Both the position numbers and the translations under genes were made by a program. This document shows, in pieces, positions 17,133 through 41,827 of a DNA stretch of 64,000 nt. Every line of letters starts with the position of its first letter. The first letter of the stretch is position 1. The notes under the pieces are model-generated. The model was given only the letters and a program-made list of their open reading frames with translations, was not told the origin of the DNA and did no database searches. The stretch comes from Tepidanaerobacter syntrophicus (lineage in GTDB: Bacteria > Bacillota > Thermosediminibacteria > Thermosediminibacterales > Tepidanaerobacteraceae): NCBI RefSeq assembly GCF_001485475.2, contig NZ_DF977000.1, positions 1 to 64,000 of the forward strand, in the 5' to 3' direction.

Positions 17133-17594
17133 TGTTCAGTTACAAATAAGTTTGCTCACGTAGTGACAAAGTTTGCTCGTCTGGTAAGCGAGTGGTTGCA
17201 ATGCTTCTCGCCCATAAGTTACTTTGAGAGACAAAGTTTGCTCGCTGGTTTTATTACCTTAAAAAATATAAAAAAAGATATAAAAAATGAGAAAATGACA
17301 AGCGAGTTTGCTCGTGAGCAGTGAAGAATGACAAAGTTTGCTCGTGGAAAAATTGGAACAATTATATGAGATGTAAGTGCGATATGCATAGGGGAGGTAT
17401 TTACTTATATTTTTATATATATTGATTTTACTGGGCTACGGGGGATTATTGGTTGTTGGATTTCGGGAATGTTTGTGGCGGGGGGATCTCTTTTTGCACA
17501 AATAAAATGCGCCAGGCTGGTTTCCCAGTCTGACGCTCTGTATCTTTCGTGAACAAACTTTGTAATTTTGAACCGACTCTTTTGTAAGTCGACA
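17133..17594. repeat. 462-bp terminal direct repeat, left copy (mini-Tn7-like unit)
   Basis: Begins TGTTCAGTTACAAAT and ends TTTGTAAGTCGACA. One end carries five copies of a TnsB-site-like motif near GACAAAGTTTGCTCG (from about 17142, 17165, 17230, 17297 and 17330). The other end carries two inverted copies (17549-17563 and 17570-17594). The terminal repeats TGTYNANTTACAAA are inverted, so this unit alone has both transposon ends. A hairpin with arms 17509-17520 and 17525-17536 lies inside. There is no convincing gene in it. Confidence 0.92.
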
Positions 17595-17689
17595 CAATCA
17601 TATTATTTGTAAATCTCTCCAAATGCTCATTTTATATCTTTCATAAAATAATACCGATCTTTGAATTAAAATCTACCAGATTATAAGGT

Positions 17690-18352
17690 TTATTCTTCAG
17701 CAACAATACTTTCAATAGTTAATGCATACATAAGGAATGAGTACATAAATTCATGAAAGATTTCTTCATAGTAAGTCTCATTATTTAATTTATCCTTATC
17801 TATCTTATATACACAACACCAATCATTATCATCATATGAGATCACTTCTAAGTCTAATCTTTCAATAAGTTCCTCTCTGCGTTTGTGTTTTCTAGCCTTA
17901 TCATTACCTAATCCGTTATTGAGTCTAGATATAGCACCCTCACCTGCCAACTTACTTATATTCTTAATGATATAGATATTCTCCTCATCTTCAACTGCTT
18001 GTGACAACTCAATTTGACAGAAATAATCGCTACCAAATTTGATTGGATTAGTTCCCAGAACTAAATGTGAATTTGGGATTCTTCTTTCTCTAGAACCCCA
18101 TTCTCCTAGATTGAAAAACAACTCATACTCGCGTTCTTTTATCTTTAATACAGATGTGCTTTCTTCAAACATAAAATATACCTTTTCCATATCTATAAAA
18201 TCTTCATCTTTAATAGGTATAGAAACTGAATCTATAACAAGGTCTAAATCTAAGTTTTGGCTTGTAATTTCTATATTACCAATTAATCCAGTGTTTATTA
18301 GGATCTCTTTAATTGTATTACAATTGTTTACTGTTATTAATTCGTATCCCAC
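17690..18352 (-). CDS. hypothetical protein (220 aa)
   Basis: I do not recognise this protein. It is soluble and acidic, with no membrane segment, a predicted mix of strands and helices in the first two thirds, a basic stretch KARKHKRREEL around residue 160, and a helical C-terminus. I chose GTG 18352 because AAGGGG lies 8 bp upstream; an in-frame ATG 18 bp earlier overlaps that site. It follows the tyrosine recombinase gene by about 80 bp on the same strand, so the two may be one unit. It is the leftmost gene of the element. Confidence 0.6.
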   Translation of the reverse strand: MGYELITVNNCNTIKEILINTGLIGNIEITSQNLDLDLVIDSVSIPIKDEDFIDMEKVYFMFEESTSVLKIKEREYELFFNLGEWGSRERRIPNSHLVLGTNPIKFGSDYFCQIELSQAVEDEENIYIIKNISKLAGEGAISRLNNGLGNDKARKHKRREELIERLDLEVISYDDNDWCCVYKIDKDKLNNETYYEEIFHEFMYSFLMYALTIESIVAEE

Positions 18353-18433
18353 GTTCCTTTCCCCTTTCATTTATAAGATAAATATGTTTATTCAGATTAA
18401 AAATTTGCTTCAAAATAATATTAATAATAACAT

Positions 18434-19027
18434 TTATAAAAAGAAATTCTCCAAACTCTCATCAATCTCTTCCTGAGTCAATCCAATATATCTTCTTGTT
18501 ACATTTTGAGAACTATGATTAAATATCTGCATCAATTTCACTATATCCTTTGTTTCCTGATAATAAAAATATCCAAAACTCTTTCTAAAGGAATGTATAC
18601 CAAAGTTTTCTATTCCTAATTCCTCTGCTACATTTTTAATATATCTATAGGCTTGTACCCTTGTTATATGAGATCTTACTCCATCTCTATTTCTTTGCCT
18701 ACTTGGGAAAAGATATTCGTGATTTTCCATACCAGAAGTATATTTATCTAACTCACTTCGTAATTGAGGGTTAATAGGAAATACTTTAATTTTATTTGTT
18801 TTCTCTTCTCTTAAGGTTATATGGCTTTTATTTCTTACATCTTCTACTTTTAAAGGAATTATATCTCCAATTCTTAATCCAGTATTTAATCCAATAATAC
18901 ATAAGATATAATATTTGTAATTTCTTTTTAGGAGTTCCATTTTAAGTTCCGCAATTTTTTGTCTATCTTTTATTGGCTGAACTAATGCCACAACATCATC
19001 TCCTCTGGAAGTATTTTCTAATCTCAT
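18434..19027 (-). CDS. short tyrosine recombinase
   Basis: A 197-aa protein made almost only of the catalytic domain of the phage integrase/Xer family. It has Arg52 (GLRIGD), a Lys near 76, His145-x-x-Arg148 (HSFR), His171 and the nucleophile Tyr180 (RRYIGL), so the active site looks complete. The N-terminal core-binding domain is missing or very short, as in some plasmid resolvases. The ATG has GAGAG upstream. In this element it could resolve multimers or cointegrates; that role is inference. It is not close to either boundary in the way a normal integrase would be. Confidence 0.88.
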   Translation of the reverse strand: MRLENTSRGDDVVALVQPIKDRQKIAELKMELLKRNYKYYILCIIGLNTGLRIGDIIPLKVEDVRNKSHITLREEKTNKIKVFPINPQLRSELDKYTSGMENHEYLFPSRQRNRDGVRSHITRVQAYRYIKNVAEELGIENFGIHSFRKSFGYFYYQETKDIVKLMQIFNHSSQNVTRRYIGLTQEEIDESLENFFL

Positions 19028-19084
19028 TATATCACTCTCACAAGCATATTTCAGCCCATTAAATTACACTCAAATGATTCAATT

Positions 19085-19130: not shown

Positions 19131-19139
19131 TCAGTGACA

Positions 19140-21374: not shown

Positions 21375-24300
21375 TTAGCCTAAAATTTTATTAAAAACTT
21401 TTTCTATGCAATCCTCGTCTTCTAAGAACAATACATTCCTTTTCTCATATTCCATTTTGTTGTTTACTCCATACTTAACTTTAACATCAGAAAAACTTGT
21501 ACCCGACATTATAAATGAGTTTAAAACGATATCCACAGAATTGTCAGTCTTTTGCAGTTGTTTTTCTAATTCTTTGATTGTCTCAAAAAACATTATTTTT
21601 TCATTGTTGATATTTTTATCAAGCATCATAATTCCCTTTGGATCAATGAAATTAATATATTGTTTCTTATCGTTTGCAACCCATAATATAAAATCAGGAT
21701 AAAAGTTCCCTGCTTCAAAAAATCCTATTCCTACCTTAGCCTTGTTGCGGAGTAAGTATAATTTATAGTCAGAAAACAAAGATGGGTTATTATTTACATA
21801 TTCCCTTAATAAATCAATAAATCTTTTTTCATCTTTATTTAATCCAACAGGCCTAACCTCTATTTTAAATCCATCTTTTATACTGACAAGTGGTACATAT
21901 AAATGATTATAATAGTCAAATGCGGTAAACTCAAATTTTGATTGTGGGATTAATTCCTGGTCCCCCTTCAGCATTCCTGATAAATTATGTATAAACCTTT
22001 CAAAACTATCAAAGTCCTCCTTTGAACGGTCATATAGAGTAATTAGATATTCTTTAACCAGATTGTTCTTAATATTATTCTCATTTATTGTTTCATATTT
22101 TAGGTATGGTTGTTCCCAAGCCTTTTTGTGATACTTATAAAATGTATCTATATACTTTTTTAATAAAGACATACAGATGTCTTCAATAACTACAATCTTA
22201 TCAAAACTGTCTAGTTTTAATTCGTTTTCAGGTATATATAAAACATACCAATCTTTGTTGCAAAGTATCTTAATACATTCATCTTTACTTATAATAATAT
22301 TATAATACCCTTTTTCACTTTTATACCTTTGTAACTCGGCTAATACTTCACTCATATCAATAAATGATAAAATATTCTCATATAGATAATCATTATGTTT
22401 ATCGGTAGCAATTTCATTATTATTATTAGATGTTAACGCCTGTACTTTCGAATATACATCATGTTTAATTTTATTTTTGACTATATAATTATAAAAATCT
22501 CCGGTTGGTTCAGTTATAAGCAGCCTTTTAGATTTCTTCTTAAAATTTATATTGTGAGGCAAGGTGATTACCTTTAGATTACTCTTCTTTGCCCTTTCAA
22601 GCCTCTCTTTATACACAGTAGGCAGTTTATACTCCCTAGATACTTTATCAACAGGTACTTCTTCATATTCGAGGAACTGTTTGAAACTTTTCATGTAATC
22701 CGCCCTAACTCCAAATATAGTTAACGTTTCAAGTTTATTAATATATCTAGGTGGCTCCTTCTCTTTCCTAAAGGCTTCACTTCTCTTTAATAAGTTCTTA
22801 TATCCTTTAAGTCTTACTCCTCGACCAAAAAGTTGTATTGCCAGAGAACCTTCTTCACGAGCAAAATTAAAAAATACCATAGTCGAAACACGGTAACTGT
22901 TCCAACCTTCAGTGAATTTCCTTGAACCAACAAGTATATTTATCTTTGATGATTCATCATTTATATTTCTAAATAGACTTTCTGTAATAAATTCATTTGA
23001 ACTAGTTACCATTCCTACCAATTCGCAATTTTTAATTAATTGATTACTTTCGCCAACATTAATAACGCCAAAATATTCATTTTGATCACCTATTTTTAAC
23101 CCAATCTCTCCGTTTACCTGTTTTAAATCTTCAATGTATAATCTCCCCGAAGCATCTGAGTTAAATATTAAATTAAGTATATCTTTATAAAGTGCATCTA
23201 CATCTCCTTTGAATACATCTTGTAAAAATGTAAAGTCATTATAGAATAAATCTCTATTTCCTTGCATTAATCCAGTATCACCATTTAAGACTAATCTAAT
23301 GTTTTCAATGCTTTTCTTGTAATTACTTGTAAATTCATCAATAAAAACTAATATTTTTTGGACATCAGATAAAACTTCCTCTTCTCCTTTTGTTAAATTA
23401 CTTCTTTTATTAACGCTATTACCAACACATACCAATAAAGGTTTTTCTAGATTATATGGCTCATATTCTTTCGAGTATACATTAAAAAGTTTCAATTGTT
23501 GGTAATAAGTAAGTAAACAGCCTATTAGATAAAGTGTATTTTTATTTTCGTTCTCATCTTCCTCCAGATTATATATTCTATATTCTTTTCCATACATATC
23601 GTTGTAGAAATACTTATATGAATAATCGAAAATAATTGATTTTCCATATATATCGACTATACTCTCTTCATCTTTCTTAATTTTTTCTCCTTTTAATGCC
23701 TGTTTAAAAGTTGCAGAATACTCAAAAACAAATCCCTCTTCTGATAGCCGATTTCTATAATCAAGCCAAACCTCTCCACCAAGACCTTTATGACCTTCAT
23801 CTACAAATAAAACATTATTTTTCAAAAAAGAATCTACTGATACAGTTTTAATCTTTCCTTCTTCCTTTAATTTATTAATATCTATAATGATAACAGCATC
23901 TTCATTGTACAATAAATCATTATGAAATAACTCATAAGGGATATTCGATAATTCCATTTCTTCCATATGCTGATTAGATAAACCTTCATTTGGAGTAAGC
24001 ACAATATACCGATTAATTTCAAAATCAGGGTTAATCTTTTTGGCTTTCTTATAATAATGCTGAAATTGCAAAATATTAATGTGCATTATATATGTTTTTC
24101 CGCTTCCTGTAGCACACATATACGCAAGCCTGCTAAGATTTTCCTTTGTATACTCTTTAATCGGTTGCTGTGGATTCTTCTCATTATATTCGTTTACAAA
24201 TTGGTTTAATTCATCCAAAAAATTCTCAGTATCAAAAAAATACTTATCTAAAAAGATTTCAGTAAAAAGTAATGCAATATATTGGTAATATTTAAGTTTG

Positions 24301-24578
24301 ATGCCTCCTCTTTTCTCACCAATTCGTTTGACATGTCTATATAAATTCTGATCATATTCAAGTAATTTATCCTTGGATATATTGCTGTATTTTGCAAATT
24401 TAGGAGAAATATAGTAGTAATAGTATGAAATGTTATCTTCATCATATCCTTCTAAATCATCATCTTTAATTCCATTATCAATATTAGAAATACTATCTTC
24501 CCCGATAAGTAAGAGGAAATATTTGTTAAGAATTAATCTCTCATTTAAATCTTGATTCTTTACTGATTTCCTAGGCAC
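21375..24578 (-). CDS. res: type III-like restriction enzyme, Res subunit
   Basis: A 1067-aa SF2 helicase-nuclease. Motif I ATGSGKT at 156-162, motif II DEGH at 260-263, motif III SAT at 288-290, motif V-like GSRKFTEGWN and motif VI QLFGRGVRLKG show the translocase. Near the C-terminus PDFILW...INFIDPKG fits a PD-(D/E)xK nuclease core. It would cut DNA that lacks methylation by the partner Mod. The start is GTG, with AGGAGGG overlapping the end of mod (14-bp gap), so they are translated as a unit. It is somewhat longer than classical Res (about 970 aa). Confidence 0.88.
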   Translation of the reverse strand: MPRKSVKNQDLNERLILNKYFLLLIGEDSISNIDNGIKDDDLEGYDEDNISYYYYYISPKFAKYSNISKDKLLEYDQNLYRHVKRIGEKRGGIKLKYYQYIALLFTEIFLDKYFFDTENFLDELNQFVNEYNEKNPQQPIKEYTKENLSRLAYMCATGSGKTYIMHINILQFQHYYKKAKKINPDFEINRYIVLTPNEGLSNQHMEEMELSNIPYELFHNDLLYNEDAVIIIDINKLKEEGKIKTVSVDSFLKNNVLFVDEGHKGLGGEVWLDYRNRLSEEGFVFEYSATFKQALKGEKIKKDEESIVDIYGKSIIFDYSYKYFYNDMYGKEYRIYNLEEDENENKNTLYLIGCLLTYYQQLKLFNVYSKEYEPYNLEKPLLVCVGNSVNKRSNLTKGEEEVLSDVQKILVFIDEFTSNYKKSIENIRLVLNGDTGLMQGNRDLFYNDFTFLQDVFKGDVDALYKDILNLIFNSDASGRLYIEDLKQVNGEIGLKIGDQNEYFGVINVGESNQLIKNCELVGMVTSSNEFITESLFRNINDESSKINILVGSRKFTEGWNSYRVSTMVFFNFAREEGSLAIQLFGRGVRLKGYKNLLKRSEAFRKEKEPPRYINKLETLTIFGVRADYMKSFKQFLEYEEVPVDKVSREYKLPTVYKERLERAKKSNLKVITLPHNINFKKKSKRLLITEPTGDFYNYIVKNKIKHDVYSKVQALTSNNNNEIATDKHNDYLYENILSFIDMSEVLAELQRYKSEKGYYNIIISKDECIKILCNKDWYVLYIPENELKLDSFDKIVVIEDICMSLLKKYIDTFYKYHKKAWEQPYLKYETINENNIKNNLVKEYLITLYDRSKEDFDSFERFIHNLSGMLKGDQELIPQSKFEFTAFDYYNHLYVPLVSIKDGFKIEVRPVGLNKDEKRFIDLLREYVNNNPSLFSDYKLYLLRNKAKVGIGFFEAGNFYPDFILWVANDKKQYINFIDPKGIMMLDKNINNEKIMFFETIKELEKQLQKTDNSVDIVLNSFIMSGTSFSDVKVKYGVNNKMEYEKRNVLFLEDEDCIEKVFNKILG

Positions 24579-24592
24579 TATACTTCCCTCCT

Positions 24593-27500
24593 TTATATAT
24601 CCTTATAATCAAACATTTTATTTTTGAACACAGTTTCTATTAAGTTGACCTTCCAATTTTCACCATTTTTACGGTAATTTTCAAGATTGTTATCTCCGTT
24701 TACAAAATAAACATCATATTTTCTATTTTTATTTTTGTGAAAATGATTGAAAAAAGCATCTAGTGCTGCATTATCTTTAATGGCATCGCCTGTAATATTT
24801 CTCCAAATAACAAGAGCAGACTGCCCATTTGGTAATTTACCTTCAACAGTTTTAAAACAATATTCGCCATCCTCTTCACTTTCAAGTAATACAGCCCCAT
24901 CATATGTATCAGGCTCTTTTTCATTATAAGGTATTGGACGAGTATTAAACCTTAAAATTCTACTTTGCGATACCACATCCAAACCTATTAAATAATTGAA
25001 AGTTTCAACAAGGTCTATCGTTTTATTTGTCATTACATTTCTTGTTGTGATTCGCATTTTATAATCAAATGGATTTGCAAAGTTGTCAAGATTTAACACA
25101 CTATCTTTACTTTCCATATCGAACATATAGTAAACAAGATACTCCTCAAATAGATTTTTATTGCTATCAAATATGCTCTGTTGTTGCTCGTTACGTGTGA
25201 AATTAATATTATTAAGAGTATCTTCATAACTCTCCAAACGGATATATTTAACAATCTGGCTTATACCTGTATCTCTATTTGTAGGTGAACCATCTTTCCA
25301 GTCTTTTGAATAAATAACCTTTTTTATACGAGGTAAAGTAACTGTATTGAAATAATTGCCCATTTCAACAAGTATATATTTTCGATTACCGTTTTCTTTG
25401 TCTTCACGATTCAAATCAATAACAGCATGAGCAGTTGTTCCTGAGCCTGCAAAATAGTCCAATATAATAGAATTATTATTTGATACAGCATAAATGCAAT
25501 CTTTTACTGTATAAACAGACTTAGGAAACTGGAAAAGGTCCTTAGGAAAATTCATAGATGTTAATACTTTAGTTCCATAATCTCCAGCATTATACAAAGG
25601 AGAATACCACATTGTCTTAAATTGCTCTGAATATTTAGGCATAAATATTTGTAAATTTGATTTCCTGGATTCTTCAATTACTAAATATTCAAAAATTTCA
25701 TTTATACTTTGAAATGCATACCTCCATTTTCTTTCAATTAAATTATCATCAATAGGATAAATGGCTATAATTGGATTTTCTTCTGTTGCAGTAAAAATTT
25801 GTTTATCCTTATTGTTATTTACATACATTTCTACATTACCACTCTTTATTACTACATTCGGACTCTGTGGATGATAATCATCATCACACACATCTCCACA
25901 ACCAATTATCTTACCATTCTGCACATATATCGGATAAAAGCAATTTGCAGCATCTGTTCTAAGAGACTCACTTCCCCAGTTTCTAAAGTTTGAGTATTCC
26001 CATTCATTTTCTGGCAACAACTTACTATTTAGTTTTTTCAACTTATTCGAAATAGAAAAGACCGCAAAATCATTAGAATAAGAAAAATGATCCCCTTGTG
26101 TACCTTTCTTGTTATGTTCAACCGCTACAGAAACCATGTCATTATTAGGATGAAGTTGTCTTAATAATTCTACTAGTCTCGTATGCTCATATTTATCTAT
26201 AGCAACAATTGTTGAACCATCTTCAGTATTAAACTTTTTGCTAAGTGTCAATCTATTTTCCATAAGTGAAAGCCAAGTGGAATGTTTGAAGTTATTTTTG
26301 TACACAATTTCACTTGAAGGTGAATTATAAGGCGGATCAATATATACACATTGTACTTTCCCTTTATATTTTTCTTCTAATAACTTTAAAGCCTGAAAAT
26401 TTTCACTATGTATTAATAATCCATTTGTTTTTTCATCCAAATTATCAATGCTTTCAATAAGTCTCTCCTTAAAATCTCTATCAAAATGTTTTGTATCAAG
26501 TACTAAGTTTCTATTTTGCTTTAAAAAATCCACAGTTAATGGAGTTGAAAATGAAATTTGTTGAACATCATCAATTGCAATTTGTTCATTGTTATTTTTA
26601 ATTTCATCTATTTTATAGTATTCAATCCATTCATCTATTTGTTTTTGGTTAGCGACAATCTCAGAATAAAATTTCTCATCAATTAAATCTAGAGTAATAC
26701 ACCAATTAGTTTCCACAACAAATTTCTTTTTCAGCCATAATTTCTTTTGAAAATCTTCAATTTGCGCTAAAAAGTCAATAATGATTTCACCAACATTTTT
26801 GATTGCTCGTATTTTACATAAATAACTTTCTACTCGCTCTTCTTTTTCAGTTCCGATATCATCTAACTTCATTACCTCCGATTTAATATAAAAATCTAGT
26901 TCACGCTTTAAGAACTTTTTGAGGTCTTTATGAATAAAGTAATCAAACGTATTTTTAGCAACATAAGTTGTAAGATGTTTCTCTAGAAGAGTTCTATTTT
27001 TATCCTTTTCAGTTGGTGCTGGAATTAGTAGTGCATTTAAGTATTTACTATCTAATTTTGAAATTTCACTCTTGATTTTTTCATAAGCAGATTTTACAAG
27101 AGTATCTTGCTTAGCAGTATGTACTTTGAATTCAAAGTACATATTGATCTCATCATTACCTACTTCAAGGAAATTTTCATCTAACAAAACAAACCTGCGT
27201 TTTTCATCTTTGGCTTCCTTATTGTTATCTTGTTCCGTAGAAACTTCCACTAATCTAAAATTTACTGTTATCCCTTGAGAAACAAATGAGTAATTCTTAA
27301 AATACTCACTTGTCTTTATATAGTATTGATCATGATTTGCCCAGTATAGTTTAACTTCTTCCCCCTCATAAGGAATAGCATATACCCCTTCCTTATATCT
27401 TCTTTTAGATATAAAATCTCCTTCATCATAATATCGGCTAAAGAAGTCATAAAGTTTTGAATATACATCTGTTTCAATTTCTGCCAAACTTTTGCCACTT

Positions 27501-27808
27501 TCTAAGGATTTTTTTAATTCCATATACTCCTTTTTCTTCTCACTAGTTTCAGGTAATTCTTCAATAGATACTCCTAATTCATTACATGATTCCTCAATTT
27601 TTTTCATTTTTTTCCTAATTTCCGAGTTATCTTTTGCATAAGATGATAAGATCTCTTTAACTTTAATTGGTAAATCATTATCAATGAAATTTTCAATTTC
27701 ATTCTTACGTAGTTTCATTATACGATAAATTCCGAAATCTAAATCTTCTTTATCCATTTCAAACATCTCTTTAAGCAAATCTGTAAATCTTTTTAATTTA
27801 TCACTCAT
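24593..27808 (-). CDS. mod: type III-like adenine methyltransferase, Mod subunit
   Basis: A 1071-aa DNA N6-adenine methyltransferase of the beta class. DPPY (motif IV) is at about 491-494 and the SAM motif FAGSG (ILDYFAGSGTT) follows near 790, which is the beta-class order. Between them lies a long target-recognition region. The first 480 residues are extra compared with standard Mod proteins (600-700 aa); I cannot assign this part beyond a helical, charged N-terminus. ATG 27808 is 7 bp from GGAGG and is preferred to 27814. It acts with Res downstream for defence, and could also stabilise the element by post-segregational killing. Confidence 0.87.
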   Translation of the reverse strand: MSDKLKRFTDLLKEMFEMDKEDLDFGIYRIMKLRKNEIENFIDNDLPIKVKEILSSYAKDNSEIRKKMKKIEESCNELGVSIEELPETSEKKKEYMELKKSLESGKSLAEIETDVYSKLYDFFSRYYDEGDFISKRRYKEGVYAIPYEGEEVKLYWANHDQYYIKTSEYFKNYSFVSQGITVNFRLVEVSTEQDNNKEAKDEKRRFVLLDENFLEVGNDEINMYFEFKVHTAKQDTLVKSAYEKIKSEISKLDSKYLNALLIPAPTEKDKNRTLLEKHLTTYVAKNTFDYFIHKDLKKFLKRELDFYIKSEVMKLDDIGTEKEERVESYLCKIRAIKNVGEIIIDFLAQIEDFQKKLWLKKKFVVETNWCITLDLIDEKFYSEIVANQKQIDEWIEYYKIDEIKNNNEQIAIDDVQQISFSTPLTVDFLKQNRNLVLDTKHFDRDFKERLIESIDNLDEKTNGLLIHSENFQALKLLEEKYKGKVQCVYIDPPYNSPSSEIVYKNNFKHSTWLSLMENRLTLSKKFNTEDGSTIVAIDKYEHTRLVELLRQLHPNNDMVSVAVEHNKKGTQGDHFSYSNDFAVFSISNKLKKLNSKLLPENEWEYSNFRNWGSESLRTDAANCFYPIYVQNGKIIGCGDVCDDDYHPQSPNVVIKSGNVEMYVNNNKDKQIFTATEENPIIAIYPIDDNLIERKWRYAFQSINEIFEYLVIEESRKSNLQIFMPKYSEQFKTMWYSPLYNAGDYGTKVLTSMNFPKDLFQFPKSVYTVKDCIYAVSNNNSIILDYFAGSGTTAHAVIDLNREDKENGNRKYILVEMGNYFNTVTLPRIKKVIYSKDWKDGSPTNRDTGISQIVKYIRLESYEDTLNNINFTRNEQQQSIFDSNKNLFEEYLVYYMFDMESKDSVLNLDNFANPFDYKMRITTRNVMTNKTIDLVETFNYLIGLDVVSQSRILRFNTRPIPYNEKEPDTYDGAVLLESEEDGEYCFKTVEGKLPNGQSALVIWRNITGDAIKDNAALDAFFNHFHKNKNRKYDVYFVNGDNNLENYRKNGENWKVNLIETVFKNKMFDYKDI

Positions 27809-27875
27809 TCTCATGCCTCCTATATATTAATTTGAACTAATAATCTCCTATTTCATTATTAACTATTTGCAAAAA

Positions 27876-29384: not shown

Positions 29385-29417
29385 AGAAAAAACCGGCCTG
29401 TCAATGGCCAGTTTTTA
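29385..29417 (-). terminator. terminator of parM-parR
   Basis: On the minus strand: stem AACTGGCC / GGCCGGTT (one U-G pair) followed by TTTTTTCTATTTT. It overlaps the parR stop codon. Confidence 0.75.
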
Positions 29418-31012: not shown

Positions 31013-31070
31013 GCTCATATTATAGCATGCATGAACGGTAAATGGAGCCCTATATATTTACATATAATGG

Positions 31071-31099: not shown

Positions 31100-31131
31100 G
31101 ATGTACACTAAAAAATAAAGGAGGTATGTTT

Positions 31132-31803: not shown

Positions 31804-31835
31804 TATAGTCCCCTGATACCTTGGGGACTATATTA
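31801..31835. terminator. bidirectional terminator
   Basis: Perfect 13-bp arms TAATATAGTCCCC/GGGGACTATATTA with a 9-nt loop between the convergent 31132 gene and the replication gene. Confidence 0.8.
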
Positions 31836-31851
31836 ATCCCAAATAGTTAAA

Positions 31852-34500
31852 CTATATCCTGATAAATTTTTTTACCTCTCTTTGTGTTAGTGAAATGAAC
31901 TCTGCTCCAGGGACGGGATAATTACTTAAGACCAGAACTTTACAATGTTCCGTTATAGCCCTAGCCCTTCCTACAGTTTGAACAAGTTCAGACTCTATCA
32001 TATAAAATTGGATTTCCCGTAATAAATCATTGCTGCTGTAAGTATTGAAGTAAAAGTTGTAGTTTCCCCTTGAAACAGGCTGATACATTACCTTGCTTTC
32101 ATTTAGCCTTACATCAAGGCCTAAAACACTTGCAAATAGCAGATAACTATAGGGGTTAATATGGGGAGTTCCTATTACAGTGATATTTTGACCTTTTAGA
32201 TTATCACGCCCCGCACTATTCCAAAATGACATACTTGGTTCACTTATATCATTAAAATAGCCCCTATAAGTGATAACCTTACTATTGGGGTTATATCTAT
32301 TTATTAAAGCATTTGCAATATCCATCATTTCTTTATTATTTCTATGAATGGATAATTTACTAAAGGCTCTTATAGGAACTTGCCAAATCTCTCCTATGTG
32401 TTCCACATCCCCAATATCATAAAATTTCATATTTTGACCGAAAACCATTTTATAAATCTTTTCATTGGCAGTTGCACTAAAAATAATTACCTTTTTATCA
32501 GGCAAATCTCTTTTGTTTATAAAAAGTACCTGCTCATTACCATTTCGCCCAGTCACTTTGACAAAATGACTTGAATTTAAAAATCCTAGCACATTTGTCG
32601 TTATTAGGTCATTTTTTACAACTAATTTTTCAACTTCTTTTGCACAAAGCATAAAATAGTTTGGTGTCTTTAGTACCATTCCTTCAGGTGTTTCGGTAAT
32701 TAACTTAAACATAAAATCGGTTAACTTCTTTAAAGGCGAAAATTCCGGATCTAAATACACCAGTTGGCTAAGTATAGCCATGTCTTGTATTGACATAGAT
32801 GAAATTGGGAACATTCCATTTAGAACAATATCTTCATCTATTATTAGAGTATCATTGAAGTCCTTTTCAAAAAATATTCTTTGGTGAGTAGTTAAGATAG
32901 TTTGGTTCTCAGATTTTTTTACTCGCCTCAAGTCCTTAATATATTGTGCTATGACTTCATTTTCCTTTGCTAATTGTCTTAAATACATATTTGCTCCTTT
33001 AAAAGAGCCTGTATCATAGAGCCTATCTAACTTATTGCGTTTTTCAGGTTCAATATCAGGAAGTTGTGGTACAACATAATGGTGTACTCCTGCTTTTGTC
33101 AATCTCTCGCTTACCTCGTCCTTTAATTTATGTGTAGGCACTGCTATCGTCAATTTATTATCTATACAAGCATTTATGTATTCTTCAGTTTTCCCTAACC
33201 CTGCCGGTGCCTTTATAACATAAATCCCCTTTTGTGGAGAGGCAATTATTTTACTAACAATATTAGATAATTCTTTTCTTGCCTCTTCTATACTTTTAGT
33301 TTTTCTTTTACCAACTACTTGAATTCTTCCCTTGAATAATTTTCCTTGTTCTATCATATTAATTCCATGTTTACAGTCTTTAATAAATGGACAATAACTT
33401 TCGCACCTAGAAGGAGCATATTTACCCTTAAGAATTTGATTCTTCATAACCAACCAACTATAGTTTTTCACTTTATATTCTTCACGGCTGTTTAGAATCT
33501 TATCTACTTTCGTTACTCCACCTTTTATTTTCAAAAGGTTGGACATGAGACCAAACATTTCATTGTGGTGTAACCAATACTCGCCATCTATTGCTTCCCG
33601 GTATAATTGACAATTTTTATATAGGTTTTCAAAGGGGTAATCCTTTATAAGATATGTCTCAGTATTTTCCTTCTTAATATCAAAACGGGGGGCAAAGTCA
33701 TTTTCCTTTTCAAAAAAACAATCCTGCGTATTATTGTAACAGAAATAGATTACATACCCCATATGACTAAAAAGTGTACTATTATATATATTATTAATAA
33801 AGGACTTACACTTTTTAGTCATTGATACATAAACATTGCTACTATTAACTTCAGGCATATCTTTTTCATCATGAAACGTAAAAAACTTTGGATAACCATT
33901 CTCCATGTCAATTCCAATATCTCTGCAAAAATTATACATGTTTCTCGATGCATTAGTACTATTTCTAATTACTGAACATGCAGCAAATATAAGATTCGGT
34001 ATTGATTCTACATATGAAAAGTTTTCATAAATAACTTCCCTGCCACCGTATATTATTCTCGAAGGATCCCTTGTTTCTGTTTTAGCCTGTGGAAAAACTT
34101 CCAACAGTGATCTAATTACTAGGTTGCGAACCCTGATATCCTGAATCACCTCATCCATAACGAAAACCATTTTAAACCCACTATCTGAATTAAAGGGCGT
34201 GTATATAAATGAAGGGAATAGATTAACCCTTTCACAAGTATCTAACACATTTTCCAGCGAATCATTTTCAATATCAACAACAAATATTTGTTGACTTATC
34301 CAGTTCTTAATACTTCTCTGCCCATTTTTAAAAACAGATGGTGAATAAGTTTTGCCATTTGGTATTATTATGCTTTTAGCAAAATCCTTTACAGAAATTT
34401 CTTTGACATGACATCCAATTCGTGCTGCTATTTTTGCAATCTCTTCTTCTGTCGGCTTCTTACTAAACTTTTGAGTATCTAAACATAATTTAATCATCAT
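31852..34500 (-). CDS. primase-helicase-like replication protein
   Basis: An 882-aa protein. The N-terminal part (about 1-170) resembles an archaeo-eukaryotic-type primase-polymerase: FVVDIEND at 73-80 (acidic pair), then a FIYTPFNSDSGFKMVFVMDE segment and DPSRIIYGG. Cysteines at 366, 370 and 376 may bind metal. A helicase domain follows: Walker A APAGLGKT (about 431-438), Walker B IIDED (about 553-557) and motif III FSAT. PrimPol-helicase fusions are replication proteins of plasmids and integrative elements. ATG 34500 is 7 bp from AAAGGAGG and preferred over upstream in-frame starts. The exact family is not certain. Confidence 0.7.
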   Translation of the reverse strand: MMIKLCLDTQKFSKKPTEEEIAKIAARIGCHVKEISVKDFAKSIIIPNGKTYSPSVFKNGQRSIKNWISQQIFVVDIENDSLENVLDTCERVNLFPSFIYTPFNSDSGFKMVFVMDEVIQDIRVRNLVIRSLLEVFPQAKTETRDPSRIIYGGREVIYENFSYVESIPNLIFAACSVIRNSTNASRNMYNFCRDIGIDMENGYPKFFTFHDEKDMPEVNSSNVYVSMTKKCKSFINNIYNSTLFSHMGYVIYFCYNNTQDCFFEKENDFAPRFDIKKENTETYLIKDYPFENLYKNCQLYREAIDGEYWLHHNEMFGLMSNLLKIKGGVTKVDKILNSREEYKVKNYSWLVMKNQILKGKYAPSRCESYCPFIKDCKHGINMIEQGKLFKGRIQVVGKRKTKSIEEARKELSNIVSKIIASPQKGIYVIKAPAGLGKTEEYINACIDNKLTIAVPTHKLKDEVSERLTKAGVHHYVVPQLPDIEPEKRNKLDRLYDTGSFKGANMYLRQLAKENEVIAQYIKDLRRVKKSENQTILTTHQRIFFEKDFNDTLIIDEDIVLNGMFPISSMSIQDMAILSQLVYLDPEFSPLKKLTDFMFKLITETPEGMVLKTPNYFMLCAKEVEKLVVKNDLITTNVLGFLNSSHFVKVTGRNGNEQVLFINKRDLPDKKVIIFSATANEKIYKMVFGQNMKFYDIGDVEHIGEIWQVPIRAFSKLSIHRNNKEMMDIANALINRYNPNSKVITYRGYFNDISEPSMSFWNSAGRDNLKGQNITVIGTPHINPYSYLLFASVLGLDVRLNESKVMYQPVSRGNYNFYFNTYSSNDLLREIQFYMIESELVQTVGRARAITEHCKVLVLSNYPVPGAEFISLTQREVKKFIRI

Positions 34501-34642
34501 TTTCATGCCTCCTTTGTTATTAAACAAAGGGGCATGCTGTATTTTAGTGTTTTGGTATGTATTTTAAATGTGCTTTATTAAGATACTTTCTTTATGTTAT
34601 ATTAAGTCTTTTTATTAGTTTTATTGTTGCCCCTGATTTGAT

Positions 34643-35673: not shown

Positions 35674-36951
35674 TTACTGATTTAATTGCTTTGTAACATT
35701 CAACCGCTTTATAAAATCGTAAACAGTAGTATGGCTTGTCCCCATTAATTTTGCAACCGTTGGCACGCTGTTATACTTTAATAGCCGTATTAATTCCTCT
35801 CTCCAATAATCCCCGAAATCCACAATCCTAGAATACCTGTATCTATCTTCTATACTCTTATCTGGACCACGTCGCAAATAAGAAAAACCACATTCTGGAC
35901 AGGTAAAATATCCTATTGGACTCTTGGTTTTATAATTATTTTTTATTTCTACATTCTCAATTATATGTTTTTTATACTGTTTGCAAACAGGATTTAAACA
36001 CGGATATGGTCCTTTCCCAAAAGGTAGGTATCCTACATTTTGATTAAATAACACTTCTGGTGATAGACCTAAAAATCTCATAAATAATATATGTTTTAAT
36101 GGATCTTCGATAGTTGCTTTATTCCATCCCATTTTTAAAAGCCAATTACTGTTATTAGTCTTCCTAATTGTATTGTGAGTCATCTGAAGTATCTCACTGC
36201 CCCAAAAGGTTTCAAAATCAGTAATAAGATTTTTCTGGCGTAAACCTCCATTCACTGTAGCATACTCTAATATCTTTAACTGATTTAGATACTGCTCTTT
36301 TATTTTTGTTTTAATTTCAGGATTATTCAAAATCCAGTTCATATCCTCTGCAATAATCAGTAATTTTTCATAGGTCTTTGGCTCATACACAACCTCAGTT
36401 TCAACAACACAGTTTCTTTCCGTTGCTGCTATATATTTATATTTATTGTCCTCAAATGATACACTGCTATTATAAATAGGTATTTTATGGTGAGGACAAA
36501 TATAGATGCCTCTTATCTGATGAACCCTATGCCAATATAATTCGCCATATCTCTCCATATCTTCTTTATTGCACTTTGGACAAAATCTTAGAAATTTATT
36601 TTCAGCCAGTGGGTTTATTATTCCTGTTATTTTGTTGTATATTTCAACATCCCCATGCAACATATACCGTCTAATTATTCCCCTGTTCTCAAGGCTTAAA
36701 AAGACTGTATAATACGGAAATAAGGTATGTTCAAGTATTAGCCTATCTACATCAAAAGGACTGTTTAAAGGCATATTTCGGACTAAATTTGCTAATAATG
36801 TTGGGAATTCCAGGCTACAAACTATACGCTTTACATTAAACAGATCCCTGGCAGTTTCACTTCCATTAAAATTTGGACTTTTTTCATGATATCTGGCAAA
36901 AACACTATATAGTATTTCATCTGGATACGGTGTAGGAAAAAAAGTCATCAT
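35674..36951 (-). CDS. tnsD: TniQ/TnsD target-selection protein
   Basis: A 425-aa TniQ-family protein. The N-terminus FFPTPYPDEILYSVFARYH is characteristic. A CPKC...H...CPHH zinc module lies at about residues 124-155, a second Cys set (CLNPVC...CPEC) around 315-350, and a C-terminal HTH (TVAKLMGTSHTTVYDFIKRL). The long C-terminal half is what distinguishes TnsD, which binds a fixed chromosomal site, from short TniQ adaptors. The inferred site is the 3' end of rpsI. Its ATG overlaps the tnsC stop (ATGA), so it is translationally coupled. Confidence 0.93.
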   Translation of the reverse strand: MMTFFPTPYPDEILYSVFARYHEKSPNFNGSETARDLFNVKRIVCSLEFPTLLANLVRNMPLNSPFDVDRLILEHTLFPYYTVFLSLENRGIIRRYMLHGDVEIYNKITGIINPLAENKFLRFCPKCNKEDMERYGELYWHRVHQIRGIYICPHHKIPIYNSSVSFEDNKYKYIAATERNCVVETEVVYEPKTYEKLLIIAEDMNWILNNPEIKTKIKEQYLNQLKILEYATVNGGLRQKNLITDFETFWGSEILQMTHNTIRKTNNSNWLLKMGWNKATIEDPLKHILFMRFLGLSPEVLFNQNVGYLPFGKGPYPCLNPVCKQYKKHIIENVEIKNNYKTKSPIGYFTCPECGFSYLRRGPDKSIEDRYRYSRIVDFGDYWREELIRLLKYNSVPTVAKLMGTSHTTVYDFIKRLNVTKQLNQ

Positions 36952-38330
36952 ATAACTTCAAATCCTTTAATTAACCCATGATTTTTCAATATATCATAAG
37001 CCGTTAGCCCTTCCCCCTTATTCTGCACCATAACTCTAATATCATTTTCTGCACTTGGAGGTATCTTCTTGGTTTTAACTTTTATTTGCTTTTCATTGTT
37101 TTCTACTACAGATGGCCTGGAAGTGGTAGGTATTATAAACCTATTCCGATTAGGCAATTCATAACTTATATCAATATTCCCAGTATATATATCAGGATAT
37201 CTTGCTACTTCCATTACATTACCTGTTCTTAATGCATTTAGCATTGGCTTTACCAACCTTAAACTTTCGTCAGCAACTTGTTTGATTAATTCAGGAGTTA
37301 TAATCTCAACCCCACTTGAAATTGCCTTTGTTTGAGCAAGGGCATAAAGTTTCACTGTTATATCAATTATTCCTTGGGATTGATCATATAGGGTATCTAT
37401 TAATTCATCAGTCAGAGCAGTAGGCCTTTTCGTCCATTGATAGCCCCATATTGCGTTTACAAGTAGTTTGAAGTTAATATCATTATCTAACCTTTCAAAT
37501 ACCAAATCTCCTTGTCCTGAACCCCTTCTTGCCTGTCGGAACTTCCCTTGCAATACTCCCATAGCCTCAGGAGTTCCTATTAATAATACTGGTAAGCCAA
37601 TAGTGTTAACCAGAGTAACAAAAAAATTCAGCATCCTATCGGCTCCTCCAGACTTAGACTTGCTAAGGTTTTGTATCTCATCAATTACTAAAAGCCCTAA
37701 TGAAATATTTTTAGCAATATTACTCATGGCAACGAGCATATTATCAACTGAAAGTTTACCACTACCAAATCGTGAATAATAGTCTGTCCCTAATATCTCA
37801 TCAACCTTGCTAAAAAATGATAGGCAAAGTCCTTTAATGCTTCCATCGTAGGAGCATTCAAGTCTTAAATATACTACCTGATATCGTGATAGTGGGATAT
37901 CTTTATATTTCGAGTGAACGATTACTTGTGGATACATTGATAATATTCTATTCACAACTGTTGTTTTCCCCATACCTGATACTCCAAGTAAAGTAAAGGA
38001 GCCTGCAGTGCTACGATAATTGTTTGAAACAAATGACTTCTCCAATACATTTCTTGCTACATAACCCTGTCTTATAACCCTACTAATTCTGCTTTCCAAA
38101 TCTAAATGAATCATTAGCGGCTGAAAGACATCATAAAGACGTCCCACTAGATGGGCTCTATATTGATTATCTAACTGTCTTTCTTCTTTATTATAGGGAG
38201 GAAAATTTGCTAACTTTGATACTACCTCTTCAGAAGATGTGATTTGAGGCAATGCCTCTATAAATGGATTACCTTTATATTCTGAAATAATCTGCTCTTT
38301 GTATTGGGCATTATGTATCAAATCCAGCAC
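36948..38330 (-). CDS. tnsC: TnsC AAA+ transposition regulator
   Basis: A 460-aa AAA+ ATPase that links the target selector to the transposase. Walker A GVSGMGKTT is at 116-124 and Walker B LLVIDEIQ at 213-220. The GTG start has AAGGG 8 bp upstream and lies inside the tnsB end (20-bp overlap). Shorter than Tn7 TnsC (555 aa) but complete across the ATPase core, with a C-terminal extension that in Tn7 contacts TnsA. Confidence 0.93.
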   Translation of the reverse strand: MLDLIHNAQYKEQIISEYKGNPFIEALPQITSSEEVVSKLANFPPYNKEERQLDNQYRAHLVGRLYDVFQPLMIHLDLESRISRVIRQGYVARNVLEKSFVSNNYRSTAGSFTLLGVSGMGKTTVVNRILSMYPQVIVHSKYKDIPLSRYQVVYLRLECSYDGSIKGLCLSFFSKVDEILGTDYYSRFGSGKLSVDNMLVAMSNIAKNISLGLLVIDEIQNLSKSKSGGADRMLNFFVTLVNTIGLPVLLIGTPEAMGVLQGKFRQARRGSGQGDLVFERLDNDINFKLLVNAIWGYQWTKRPTALTDELIDTLYDQSQGIIDITVKLYALAQTKAISSGVEIITPELIKQVADESLRLVKPMLNALRTGNVMEVARYPDIYTGNIDISYELPNRNRFIIPTTSRPSVVENNEKQIKVKTKKIPPSAENDIRVMVQNKGEGLTAYDILKNHGLIKGFEVI

Positions 38331-40374
38331 GGTCTTTTCCCTTCTTCTGTGCCTTTAATAGTAATTCGACCAAATTTTGCTCGGCATTACCATAGGCTTT
38401 TTCTTCAACTACTATATTTGGTTCTTCTGATCTTATTTCGATAATATTTTGTTTCCTCTCCTGCTGCTTCTCAAAATTGCGATTATCTCTGATATTCTGA
38501 ATGCGTCTCTTTTTGCTTATGCCTTCTTCAACTTCATTTTTTGTCTCTTCTTTCGCTTGTTCAATTATTTCTTCTATGTCATTTAATAAGTCTATTTTAT
38601 TTTGCAATTCTGCTTTTTTTGAGGCTTTTGCCTGCATTTTTTCATATTCCATTAGATAAGTTACTTCTTCAATAGATTTTTCTTTATATCTTGACTGATG
38701 TTCTAATAAAAAACACTTATCAAATTTTCTCCCATCTTCATACTTGATATAAATAAAACTCATATCCCTTGGATCATATGATATGTCAACTTTCCAAGAT
38801 CCATTGTTTCTTGCTTTCTCGAACCATCGTTCTTTTAATGAGGTTTTAGAACCAAATAGCATCCCTTTAAACTTAATCCCGTGCTGTGTCACAGTTGCTT
38901 TGTCTCTTGGCAGTAGATTTAATTTCAATAAATCTTCATCAACAGTTCTTAACCTTCCTGTTCTATTAGCAACACCCCATTCCCAGATTAACTTGGGTAT
39001 TGGTTCTACACCATCTGCAATCATATCTTCGCTTCTGGTATAGTTAGATAAATAGTGATGATTATTATGATACAATACACATTTTATTATAATTTGAGTA
39101 AACTGCCTTAAATCAAGGGCTGCTGAAAGTCTGTAATCTTGCTCTCCTCTTTCACGATATTGACTTTTAATTGCACCGGGCATGAAAGGCTTGGTATGTT
39201 GGTTTATAGTATTAAAATACCTCTCTATGATACCCTTCATGTCACCTCTGTAAGGGCTAGTATTTAATATTTTTATTCCAAATGCTGATATTAAAGATTC
39301 TATGTTTTCCCCTTCCAATTCTCCTCTATCTGCAATAATTGCTTCAGGCAGGGTGCTGCAGTAATTCCACTCATCATTGCCAATCTCTATACCGTACTTC
39401 CTGCAAAAGGATACTTTGTCTGACGCAGCATTAATTAATGCAATACTCGCTCCAATCCAACTAGGCCCTTCCAAAGATATATTAATTCCTACGACACAAC
39501 GTGAAAACACATCCATAACAGTATAAATAACAGGCCTTCCTATAATCCAATTCCGATTATATTGGGATACTAAATAAACATCTCCTACTGTTGCATCTAT
39601 TTGAAATATTGCTCCTGGTCCAAATGCTTCTTCAGTAGAAGATCCTGTAAGCCCCCTATGTTGTAATTCATATTGCTTTGGACTTTGACGAGTAGATACT
39701 TCTTTTTTAATGCTTCTCTCCTTATTAAACCAATATCTGAATTGCCTTAATGTAGGAATGGCATCATTTACCACCCCATTTTCACTAAAGTATTCCTTGA
39801 TCATAAGTTCATAGGTTAATGTTAAAGTCTTTCTTGAAGAATTGTAATAAAACCTATTAAGTGCTGTATTAAAAATCTTTATCGTTTCGGGTGTAATGAC
39901 AAAAGTATTATTTTTTTCCTTGTTTCCTTGTTTCCCGCCACAATTATGATAATCAGGAAGTAAAGAGTTTTTGTGCATACCTCTCTGCCAAAACCGTTTT
40001 AAATATCTCATTACAGTTGCTTCATGCACATTATAAACGTATTCTCTGACAAGTTTAGCCCTCTTTTCAGCAATGTAAATATCAGGCTCAATTGCAACAA
40101 TCTCTTTAATGGCATTATAGGCCTTATCTCTTATGGCCTTATGTTTAGGTGGGATAGCCTCTTCATCTTTGATAATCATATATGGTTCATTCTCCAAAAC
40201 ATGTATAGTGCCATCATTTAACCCACTCTGAATAAATGTTTCTGAAACTGTAATAGGCATTGAGTTACCATAAATATCAATTAGATAGATGATATCTTTA
40301 TAGTAATACAGTATTCGGTAATATATTTTGCCTTGACTTGTTTCGTATAAGATTACACTATTGATTGGAAGCAT
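38311..40374 (-). CDS. tnsB: TnsB DDE transposase
   Basis: A 687-aa retroviral-integrase-fold transposase that binds the element ends, nicks 3' ends and joins them to the target. The catalytic triad is intact: Asp260 (FQIDAT), Asp349 (IADRGEL) and Glu384 (KGIIERYF), matching Tn7 D273, D361 and E396. The C-terminus is a charged coiled segment. ATG 40374 is used; tnsA and tnsB overlap by 17 bp. No sign of decay. Confidence 0.95.
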   Translation of the reverse strand: MLPINSVILYETSQGKIYYRILYYYKDIIYLIDIYGNSMPITVSETFIQSGLNDGTIHVLENEPYMIIKDEEAIPPKHKAIRDKAYNAIKEIVAIEPDIYIAEKRAKLVREYVYNVHEATVMRYLKRFWQRGMHKNSLLPDYHNCGGKQGNKEKNNTFVITPETIKIFNTALNRFYYNSSRKTLTLTYELMIKEYFSENGVVNDAIPTLRQFRYWFNKERSIKKEVSTRQSPKQYELQHRGLTGSSTEEAFGPGAIFQIDATVGDVYLVSQYNRNWIIGRPVIYTVMDVFSRCVVGINISLEGPSWIGASIALINAASDKVSFCRKYGIEIGNDEWNYCSTLPEAIIADRGELEGENIESLISAFGIKILNTSPYRGDMKGIIERYFNTINQHTKPFMPGAIKSQYRERGEQDYRLSAALDLRQFTQIIIKCVLYHNNHHYLSNYTRSEDMIADGVEPIPKLIWEWGVANRTGRLRTVDEDLLKLNLLPRDKATVTQHGIKFKGMLFGSKTSLKERWFEKARNNGSWKVDISYDPRDMSFIYIKYEDGRKFDKCFLLEHQSRYKEKSIEEVTYLMEYEKMQAKASKKAELQNKIDLLNDIEEIIEQAKEETKNEVEEGISKKRRIQNIRDNRNFEKQQERKQNIIEIRSEEPNIVVEEKAYGNAEQNLVELLLKAQKKGKDRAGFDT

Positions 40375-41179
40375 ACCTAGCACCCCAATCAATAATAATT
40401 TTAGGACGACTTTCTGTTATATCTATTAATTCATTCATATCAATGTAAATATGTTTAGATGCTAGAAGGTATTTAAAAATGAATAAGCCTGTTCCATCTG
40501 ATACATTATTTTCTTTATCAAAGTCAGAAGTTATTTTTCTGATTGAATGTTTATTATCTCTAAATTTATCAATTAGAATGTTGCAATAATTCTCTAATGA
40601 ATTTTCTGTTAAGCCTCTTTCTTCATAGGTATACAAACTTGAGTGTATCCACTCTATGTTTTTTACCATTTTAGTAGGTATTTCTTTTTGGGTAATTATG
40701 CCAAAATCAATTTGTTTTGCTGCCCAATATCTTCTTTCTATTTCCAGTCTTTCTAGCACCGACTTTTTCCCTAACTCACTCGATGATTTTACTGTCCTTG
40801 CAATATATTTGTGATTTCGTAAAGTTAGTAGAAATGTAGTTGTTAGTATATATGGAGGCTCTTTATTAGTAAAAAACTCTTGTTTAAGGTCTTTATTGTC
40901 TTTTACCACCTCTACTAAATCTAAAAGTGGATAATGTTCTCTAATATCTACTATTTCATCATCCCATTCAAACATATAAAAACATCTGGTTTGAATATCT
41001 GAAAAGAAATGATGTATTCTGTTTGTCTTCCAGCCTTTTATGCGTGACACCCTACCATTTGACGGGAAGTCTTGTATGGATAACCAAGGCTTATAGGAGG
41101 CTAATTGACCTGCACCACGGTTTTCAGACAGGAATCTTTTATACTTTGCCATAGTCCAAGAAGTATCTCTTTTGGCCAT
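40358..41179 (-). CDS. tnsA: TnsA endonuclease homologue, catalytic residues lost
   Basis: A 273-aa protein, the same length as Tn7 TnsA, aligning without gaps over the first 86 residues (PWLSIQDFPSNGR, KTNRIHHFFSDI, DIREHYPLL). In Tn7 the nuclease uses Glu63, Asp114 and Lys132. Here residue 63 is Gln (SDIQ; codon CAA), the Asp114 position is Thr115 (TTTF; ACA), and the Lys is kept (Lys131, TVKS). So two metal-binding acids are gone and the domain should not cut DNA. The C-terminal TnsC-binding half (LERLEIERRYW) looks sound, so it may still act as an adaptor. ATG 41179 with GGAAGG upstream. Confidence 0.93.
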   Translation of the reverse strand: MAKRDTSWTMAKYKRFLSENRGAGQLASYKPWLSIQDFPSNGRVSRIKGWKTNRIHHFFSDIQTRCFYMFEWDDEIVDIREHYPLLDLVEVVKDNKDLKQEFFTNKEPPYILTTTFLLTLRNHKYIARTVKSSSELGKKSVLERLEIERRYWAAKQIDFGIITQKEIPTKMVKNIEWIHSSLYTYEERGLTENSLENYCNILIDKFRDNKHSIRKITSDFDKENNVSDGTGLFIFKYLLASKHIYIDMNELIDITESRPKIIIDWGARYASNQ

Positions 41180-41214
41180 ATAAACCTTCCTTTCTTTCAT
41201 ACTTCTTGGATGTG

Positions 41215-41243
41215 ATGTTAACGTAGTATACTGGGATTTTCAA
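41215..41243 (-). promoter_or_regulatory. tns operon promoter
   Basis: On the minus strand: TTGAAA, 17 bp, TAACAT, 35 bp before tnsA, between the right 462-bp unit and the gene. Confidence 0.65.
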
Positions 41244-41365
41244 CAGGGATAATGCTTTATTTTATATAGAAAACCTATTAAACGGCTGAATATTGGCGTT
41301 TGGTTACTATGAAATTTTTTTCTGAAATTTACCCTTATTTTTGTGCCATTTTTTATTTATTACTA

Positions 41366-41827
41366 TGTTCAGTTACAAATAAGTTTGCTCACGTAGTGAC
41401 AAAGTTTGCTCGTCTGGTAAGCGAGTGGTTGCAATGCTTCTCGCCCATAAGTTACTTTGAGAGACAAAGTTTGCTCGCTGGTTTTATTACCTTAAAAAAT
41501 ATAAAAAAAGATATAAAAAATGAGAAAATGACAAGCGAGTTTGCTCGTGAGCAGTGAAGAATGACAAAGTTTGCTCGTGGAAAAATTGGAACAATTATAT
41601 GAGATGTAAGTGCGATATGCATAGGGGAGGTATTTACTTATATTTTTATATATATTGATTTTACTGGGCTACGGGGGATTATTGGTTGTTGGATTTCGGG
41701 AATGTTTGTGGCGGGGGGATCTCTTTTTGCACAAATAAAATGCGCCAGGCTGGTTTCCCAGTCTGACGCTCTGTATCTTTCGTGAACAAACTTTGTAATT
41801 TTGAACCGACTCTTTTGTAAGTCGACA
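41366..41827. repeat. 462-bp terminal direct repeat, right copy
   Basis: Same orientation as the left copy, and I find no difference over 462 bp (constant offset 24,233). It begins after TACTA, with no duplication there, and ends against TCTCT at rpsI. The hairpin at 41742-41769 faces the incoming rpsI transcript and is followed by ATTTTATTTG on the minus strand, so it may replace the lost rpsI terminator. Confidence 0.92.

Follow-up and report, generated by a model that had tools for sequence, protein, structure and literature searches.

Direct end units, a TnsA without its catalytic aspartate and plasmid genes point to an integrative plasmid that uses a Tn7-type system beside rpsI

Results

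A Tn7-type element with two complete end units

The DNA considered here comprises the first 64,000 nucleotides of contig NZ_DF977000.1 of Tepidanaerobacter syntrophicus (assembly GCF_001485475.2); we refer to the whole of this stretch as the window. It contains a Tn7-type element that adjoins rpsI, the gene for ribosomal protein S9 (41832..42221, minus strand, recognized by family match). The element is bounded by two 462-bp units on the plus strand, a distal unit at 17133..17594 and an rpsI-proximal unit at 41366..41827. A prediction made from the letters alone had described these units as identical, direct copies with TGT...ACA termini. Base-by-base alignment bears this out, since 462 of 462 bases agree, and the identity ends exactly at the unit edges, with 0 further matching bases on either side. 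The prediction that a 5-bp target-site duplication, TCTCT, is present only at the outermost boundaries (17128..17132 and 41828..41832) also holds; the inner flanks of the units, CAATC and TACTA, do not match each other.

Inspection of the units reveals that each contains both kinds of Tn7 end. Three exact copies of GACAAAGTTTGCTCG are present per unit on the plus strand and nowhere else in the window, and a copy with three mismatches lies on the minus strand near the opposite end of each unit. A motif scan places these TnsB-like sites at 17165-17179, 17230-17244, 17330-17344 (plus) and 17550-17564 (minus) in the distal unit, and at 41398-41412, 41463-41477, 41563-41577 (plus) and 41783-41797 (minus) in the proximal one. 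When up to three mismatches were allowed, GACAAAGTTTGCTCG had 10 matches in the window, 8 within the units and 2 outside, compared with 1.5 expected from shuffled sequences. Each unit therefore presents an L-type end (an end site and three exact copies) that faces an R-type end, and whereas a cut-and-paste Tn7 element has a single L and a single R end in inverted orientation, this one has two full L+R units. No open reading frame of at least 90 aa was found within the unit, and a search of the 2.43-Mb genome with it returned two matches at E<=0.001, which are the two window copies.

Between the units, homologues of tnsA, tnsB, tnsC and tnsD were identified by Pfam matches, in the Tn7 order and reading away from rpsI on the minus strand: TnsA (40358..41200), the Mu-type transposase TnsB (38311..40392, also aligned with its relatives), the AAA/TniB protein TnsC (36948..38330) and the TnsD/TniQ target selector (35674..36951). 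The same strand encodes a ParM/Alp-type actin (29702..30619; Pfam MreB-like_C, 1.5e-12, and ALP_N, 1.6e-10) and an 891-aa protein (31852..34527) that is probably of the replication type. The latter has no Pfam or NCBIfam match and was classified by PHROG similarity; its residues 11-178 match PHROG 25531, a family that also matches, in another part, primase-like proteins of two relatives introduced below (G080 and G431). The replication and partition genes that the original prediction had placed in the interior are thus present to this extent, a combination expected of an integrative plasmid. A 96-aa protein that overlaps parM (29415..29705, minus strand, no family match) is a candidate ParR by position alone, and a tyrosine recombinase encoded near the distal unit (18434..19027, minus strand; Pfam Phage_integrase, 1.2e-22; PHROG integrase, 1e-61) is a candidate resolvase.

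As in other Tn7-like elements, insertion has occurred downstream of a conserved gene. The rpsI stop codon begins 4 bases from the unit end, and the last base of the right TCTCT copy is the first base of this codon. In all seven relatives inspected for this purpose (G001, G002, G005, G007, G011, G013 and G016) the site is uninterrupted and a hairpin terminator directly follows the rpsI stop. In the window that hairpin (17101..17129, minus strand, fold z -3.2) lies beyond the far side of the element, and the element has therefore inserted between rpsI and its terminator.

TnsA lacks the catalytic aspartate

In Tn7 TnsA, residues E63, D114 and K132 are catalytic. The sole PDB relatives of the window TnsA found by sequence are two Tn7 TnsA entries; T122 aligns with D114 and Q70 with E63, and the equivalent of K132 is kept. 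We aligned 23 TnsA proteins with that of Tn7, namely 10 that lack D114 and 13 others, of which eight came from a sample of the phylum and five were plasmid records picked from 505. The position of D114 is occupied by T in the window, Firmicutes bacterium FC7 and Tissierella pigra, and by S in genomes G080, G110, G295, G420, G428, G431 and G432, that is, by T or S in 10/10 members of this clade; it is D in 13/13 of the others, all of which also keep E63. At the E63 position the window, FC7, T. pigra and G080 have Q and the remaining six have E, and all 23 proteins have K at the K132 position. The residues at the three positions are thus Q, T, K in the three rpsI elements, Q, S, K in G080 and E, S, K in the other six. 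The clade therefore lacks the set of residues with which Tn7 carries out cut-and-paste movement, and on this evidence its TnsABCD system is predicted to be nuclease-dead.

Fragments in G005, G326 (contig 11), G431 and G432 were left out. The tnsA of G432 is interrupted by internal stops, and in G011 a partial TnsB locus gave no TnsA match. Because D114-less proteins served as the source of the queries, the search was biased towards D114-less TnsA. A second phylum sample, taken around G174, yielded the same TnsA genes as the first except for the window's own. The plasmid collection gave 505 TnsA matches; among the best 60 of these the top-ranked is 39.8% identical, and D114 is kept in the five examined of the 505 (H26, H27, H29, H30 and H33), one of which is nearly Tn7 itself.

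In a phylogenetic tree a branch supported at 100/99 sets all 10 D114-less proteins apart, corresponding to one change, and they comprise about four lineages: the window with FC7 and T. pigra; G295 with G420; G110 with G428, G431 and G432; and G080. The ratio of nonsynonymous to synonymous substitution rates (dN/dS) between the window and T. pigra is 0.087 for tnsA, 0.075 for tnsB, 0.105 for tnsC and 0.147 for tnsD; between the window and FC7 it is 0.072 for tnsA and, on few changes, 0.467 for tnsB. The low values for tnsA show that the gene is under purifying selection and is kept rather than decaying.

The same plan recurs in relatives at rpsI and glmS

A scan of genome contigs with TnsB revealed two loci at rpsI, in T. 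pigra (88%) and FC7 (98%). T. pigra possesses two 462-bp units, identical at 453 of 462 positions, on two contigs; these contigs probably bound one element, because ATTAT is present at both outer edges. In FC7 a direct pair of units, 85.4% alike over 452 aligned bases, surrounds the element, and a further unit of the first type, cut by the contig start, lies 6 bases from the pair. The degree of divergence shows that the FC7 pair is old. TACTA precedes the target-side unit in the window, FC7 and T. pigra alike, and ATGAACAA follows the distal unit in the latter two. The constancy of these inner junctions points to the unit as a permanent component of the circle. Divergence between the copies had been named beforehand as a possible sign of independent insertions; the FC7 units do diverge, but their shared inner junctions argue against separate insertion.

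We also compared each region with itself and recorded direct repeats of at least 300 bp, with at least 95% identity, that lie 15-60 kb apart around tnsA. Such repeats were found in the window (462 bp), G110 (1440), G295 (342), G080 (1183), G420 (342) and G431 (993), although in G431 identity of the repeat with an end unit is not established. T. pigra and FC7 were missed by this script because they are, respectively, split over contigs and below the threshold. G428, with a contig of just 23.7 kb, and G432 gave no such repeat. In all, paired direct end repeats are present in 7/10 D114-less members (the window, T. pigra, FC7, G295, G420, G080 and G110), and every pair except that of FC7 is at least 98% identical. 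Four of the seven pairs (G295, G420, G080 and G110) adjoin glmS. The genomes that carry these four are single contigs, so that an assembly artefact can be rejected. The exact outer duplications are ATAAC in G295, with AACTA and TCGTT inside, and CCCAT in G080. The cointegrate plan foreseen for the window, with matching outer and non-matching inner junctions, thus recurs in T. pigra, G295 and G080. Here too inner junctions are shared: G420 and G080 both have CCCCTAACTA, in G080 on the opposite strand, and G295 has TTAACTA. Ordinary single ends, which would have told against this plan, were seen in none of the D114-less members; three of the ten (G428, G431 and G432) are uninformative or decayed.

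No comparable pair of repeats was found at the element ends of eight Asp-bearing TnsA loci from seven genomes, several of whose windows are short (18.5 kb in G181; limited on one side in G122, G255 and G326). Two candidates were rejected. A 1192-bp repeat in G076 satisfied the repeat thresholds, but one of its copies is on the far side of glmS and so not within the element. A 262-bp, 85% repeat in G148 is protein-coding; the first copy is slightly internal to the left end, and the second immediately follows the right end on the outside. The ends of the G148 element are ordinary, a single L and a single R: four sites on the left (39185-39259) and three inverted sites on the right (67676-67803), the whole being flanked on either side by TCACG. 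These single inverted ends agree with what the residue argument predicts for a TnsA that retains its aspartate. In G326, also Asp-bearing, repeated end-like words are likewise inverted.

Plasmid genes were sought by tblastn with three ParM, two replication-protein and one primase query, taken from the window, T. pigra, G080 and G295. ParM was detected in 5/10 D114-less regions and a relative of the replication protein or primase in 7/10, the query sources included. Pfam matches to a D5-type helicase (T. pigra) and to a Toprim primase (G420) bring the replication-type proteins to 9/10; neither tblastn nor Pfam revealed one in G432. The same tblastn queries found no match in the regions of the seven Asp-bearing genomes, a contrast that is only as good as the queries, because the Pfam scan covered the D114-less regions alone.

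A hairpin in the unit may replace the displaced terminator

In the sense of rpsI transcription, the unit has a hairpin of its own, followed by a T-rich run, in its R part. In the window the terminator-like hairpins are on the minus strand at 17509..17536 (distal unit, fold z -4.4) and at 41742..41769 (proximal unit), where the latter is positioned to end rpsI transcripts. Fold z values between -3.7 and -4.5 were obtained for the window unit, two type-B units of FC7 and an FC7 type-A unit, and the hairpin sequences of the FC7 type-B units differ from that of the window. We read the unit hairpin as a replacement for the rpsI terminator, which has been displaced by 24.7 kb, with the act of termination predicted from sequence and fold. 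The notion that the hairpin is a core site for the recombinase was rejected, since the FC7 type-B sequence differs while the hairpin and T-run persist.

Extra units beside glmS

The 342-bp unit of G420 has matches in 17 of 37 genomes of the class to which G295 belongs, and a TnsA match was obtained in 6 of the 37. Full or near-full units lie beside glmS with no TnsA match in six genomes, G069 (locus L113), G397 (L112/L131), G422 (L115), G411 (L116), G418 (L117) and G430 (L134); in G069 and G397 the units are in tandem with 5-6 bases between them. Because G397, G422 and G418 carry the interior-side junction CTAACTA, some of these extra units are evidently ends of other or decayed elements, and not every one of the six genomes need have a true solo unit. 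In G420 an older 339-bp unit (80%) lies directly to the left of the element. In G080 units are separated by CCCAT and a block of this array is present at both ends; the duplicated end (joined region 30745-31923 and 63703-64881; L027, L025/L026) is this array with its CCCAT spacers, which would be explained if the circle had taken it along on leaving an earlier site. The extra and tandem units at glmS fit earlier integrations.

Discussion

A model for integration and exit

Taken together, these observations make it very probable that we are dealing with an integrative plasmid whose integrase is its Tn7-type TnsABCD system. According to this model, the plasmid would exist free as a circle of 24.2 kb that bears one 462-bp unit with its L and R ends. 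TnsD would direct insertion to a position just after the rpsI stop codon, and TnsB would nick both 3' ends of the unit and join them to the target. TnsA, predicted to be incapable of the 5' cuts, would be retained as a structural partner. Without 5' cutting the circle would not be left behind; replication would copy the 462-bp unit alone, and the whole circle would come to lie in the chromosome between two direct units, with the 5-bp duplication outside. The clearest examples have units of about 340-480 bp, so that insertion of a plasmid would call for very little replication. The unit hairpin would then stand in for the displaced rpsI terminator. The presence of long direct repeats and of extra units suggests a route of exit, in which recombination between the units, by host homologous recombination or the encoded tyrosine recombinase, would restore the circle and leave a solo unit behind.

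The missing aspartate is the likely reason that an element with TnsA forms cointegrates. With the active-site mutant D90A of Vibrio cholerae TnsA, >95% of reads are cointegrates, in which two mini-transposon copies enclose the entire donor (PMC8188705); this is the structure seen here, and it supports the cointegrate reading. According to a recent review (PMC11406308), Tn7-like elements either prevent cointegrates through cutting by TnsA or process them with site-specific recombinases, and section 11 of a survey (PMC8649781) predicts replicative movement where tnsA is lost and a resolvase gained.

Other ways to arrive at this structure must be considered. If TnsABC had acted on a plasmid dimer, the unit-interior-unit segment could have moved by cut-and-paste as a 24.7-kb transposon, its L end being supplied by one unit and its R end by the unit that follows. 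The product would be identical to the cointegrate, the outer L and R are a legal pair of ends with a 5-bp duplication, and PMC8188705 names dimeric donors, together with homologous recombination, among possible sources of the rare cointegrates obtained with wild-type TnsA. This route requires an active TnsA, however, and the aspartate is missing in 10/10 clade members, whereas none of the Asp-bearing loci examined has the plan; we consider it unlikely. Cutting by TnsA is equally needed for a linear excision after which the 462-bp direct ends recombine into a circle while transposition stays cut-and-paste. Perfect 462-bp ends should be good substrates for homologous recombination, but the dependence on cutting leaves such terminal redundancy with hardly any likelihood. 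A compound transposon, in which independent insertions of two 462-bp mini-elements enclosed a piece of a plasmid that they later mobilized together, is also very improbable. The tandem units with spacers of about 5 bp, such as CCCAT in G080, and the units beside glmS in genomes with no TnsA match are what this scenario would lead one to expect. Against it stand the inner junctions, which lack a matching duplication and are common to elements of different species, so that the unit has a fixed place in the circle, and the identity of at least 98% within the pairs of six elements.

Several observations nevertheless weigh against an integrative plasmid that inserts by cointegration. The free circle expected from the original prediction, or a copy with a single unit, did not turn up in the plasmid and viral-contig collections searched. 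The unit had no match in the plasmid collection; scans of the viral contigs with TnsB, the replication-type protein and a 42-base core of the unit revealed no relative, and four pattern matches from one of these scans were not confirmed. ParM was not found in 5/10 D114-less regions. The FC7 units have diverged and their outer flanks differ (AATAT and AAAAT), and those of G420 (ATTTC and TTTCG) are offset by one base and are equal only if one terminal A is counted. The plan is partial in G110, where the outer termini could not be placed; G431 is rearranged, G432 combines a broken tnsA with the lack of a repeat pair, and the G428 contig is too short. The D114-less members form one group of about four lineages, so that loss of the residue and the architecture may trace to one event. 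Finally, PMC10293859 reports 39.1% co-integrates for a Tn6022-like system that possesses tnsA.

Relation to known systems

The element resembles Tn7 in its TnsABCD homologues, TGT...ACA ends, asymmetric L and R sites, 5-bp duplication and insertion just after a conserved gene with tnsA nearest the target-side end. It differs in that its TnsA lacks the aspartate, L and R share a 462-bp unit of which there are two copies, the group to which the window belongs is at rpsI and the interior is a plasmid-like backbone. In IS26-type translocatable units, too, a circle with one short, end-bearing unit integrates and comes to lie between two direct copies. The IS26 unit, however, encodes its transposase, while here no gene was found in the unit, the transposase genes are interior and insertion is at rpsI or glmS. 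A Burkholderia element is also said to be a large mobile region bounded by direct copies, although its transposase is reportedly not of the Tn7 type.

A donor backbone between direct copies of a mini-transposon is likewise produced by the V. cholerae CRISPR-associated transposon (CAST) with mutant TnsA and by the type V-K CAST, which has no TnsA (PMC8188705). Those systems are an engineered mutant or CRISPR-guided, whereas here a natural Asp-less TnsA is combined with TnsD and the cointegrate is seemingly the normal mode. Replicative transposition is expected, and a site-specific recombinase is present, in Tn5053 and the TnsA-less Tn7-like branches, but these have no tnsA and presumably resolve the cointegrate (PMC8649781, section 11; PMC11406308). 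In the present clade tnsA is kept and the unresolved cointegrate is the resident form. We found no report of a natural TnsA without its catalytic Asp, of a Tn7-integrated plasmid or of rpsI as a TnsD site, a weak absence in that most subscription papers lay outside the search.

It seems that in a natural clade the residue needed for cutting has gone and the cointegrate has become the state in which the element resides, turning a transposon into a plasmid integrase. A broader proposal, which we hold to be somewhat favoured, is that a clade of plasmids spanning several bacterial families has domesticated Tn7 as a dedicated, reversible integrase. Loss of the nuclease would be the adaptive switch, TnsA an obligatory scaffold and the L-R unit an attachment site that duplicates itself and also restores transcription termination for the target gene, with solo units left on exit recording past integrations. 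An Asp-less natural TnsA under purifying selection would be useful to separate the structural role of this protein from its role in cutting. Our reading predicts site-specific insertion of whole plasmids at rpsI or glmS, and it offers a reason for the tandem short repeats beside glmS in some genomes.

Other features of the elements

The TnsD reading frames are 420-425 aa long in the elements at rpsI and 620-628 aa long in those at glmS (G080, G110, G295 and G420); the shorter C-terminus of the rpsI group may accompany the changed target. The D114-less elements of G431 (L096-L100) and G432 (L106-L110) are rearranged or broken, and in G431 several long repeats surround tnsA and a rep-like reading frame runs into sequence of an IS21-type transposase.

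A scan of eight proteins shows that the rpsI elements differ in defence-type cargo. In the window, 21375-27814 is occupied by a type III restriction-modification system, with the restriction subunit at 21375..24578 and the methyltransferase at 24593..27814, both on the minus strand and identified by family matches. Of the other two elements, in FC7 (L016-L017) and T. pigra (L020), one has matches to a cyclase, a kinase, a HerA-like protein and a type I methyltransferase, and the other has a type II/PglX-like methyltransferase. A 226-aa protein with no family match is encoded next to the distal unit (17690..18370, minus strand). Between parM and the replication-type gene, a 225-aa protein with no confident family match is encoded on the opposite strand (31126-31803), and FC7 has a similar reading frame of like size (29301-29978).

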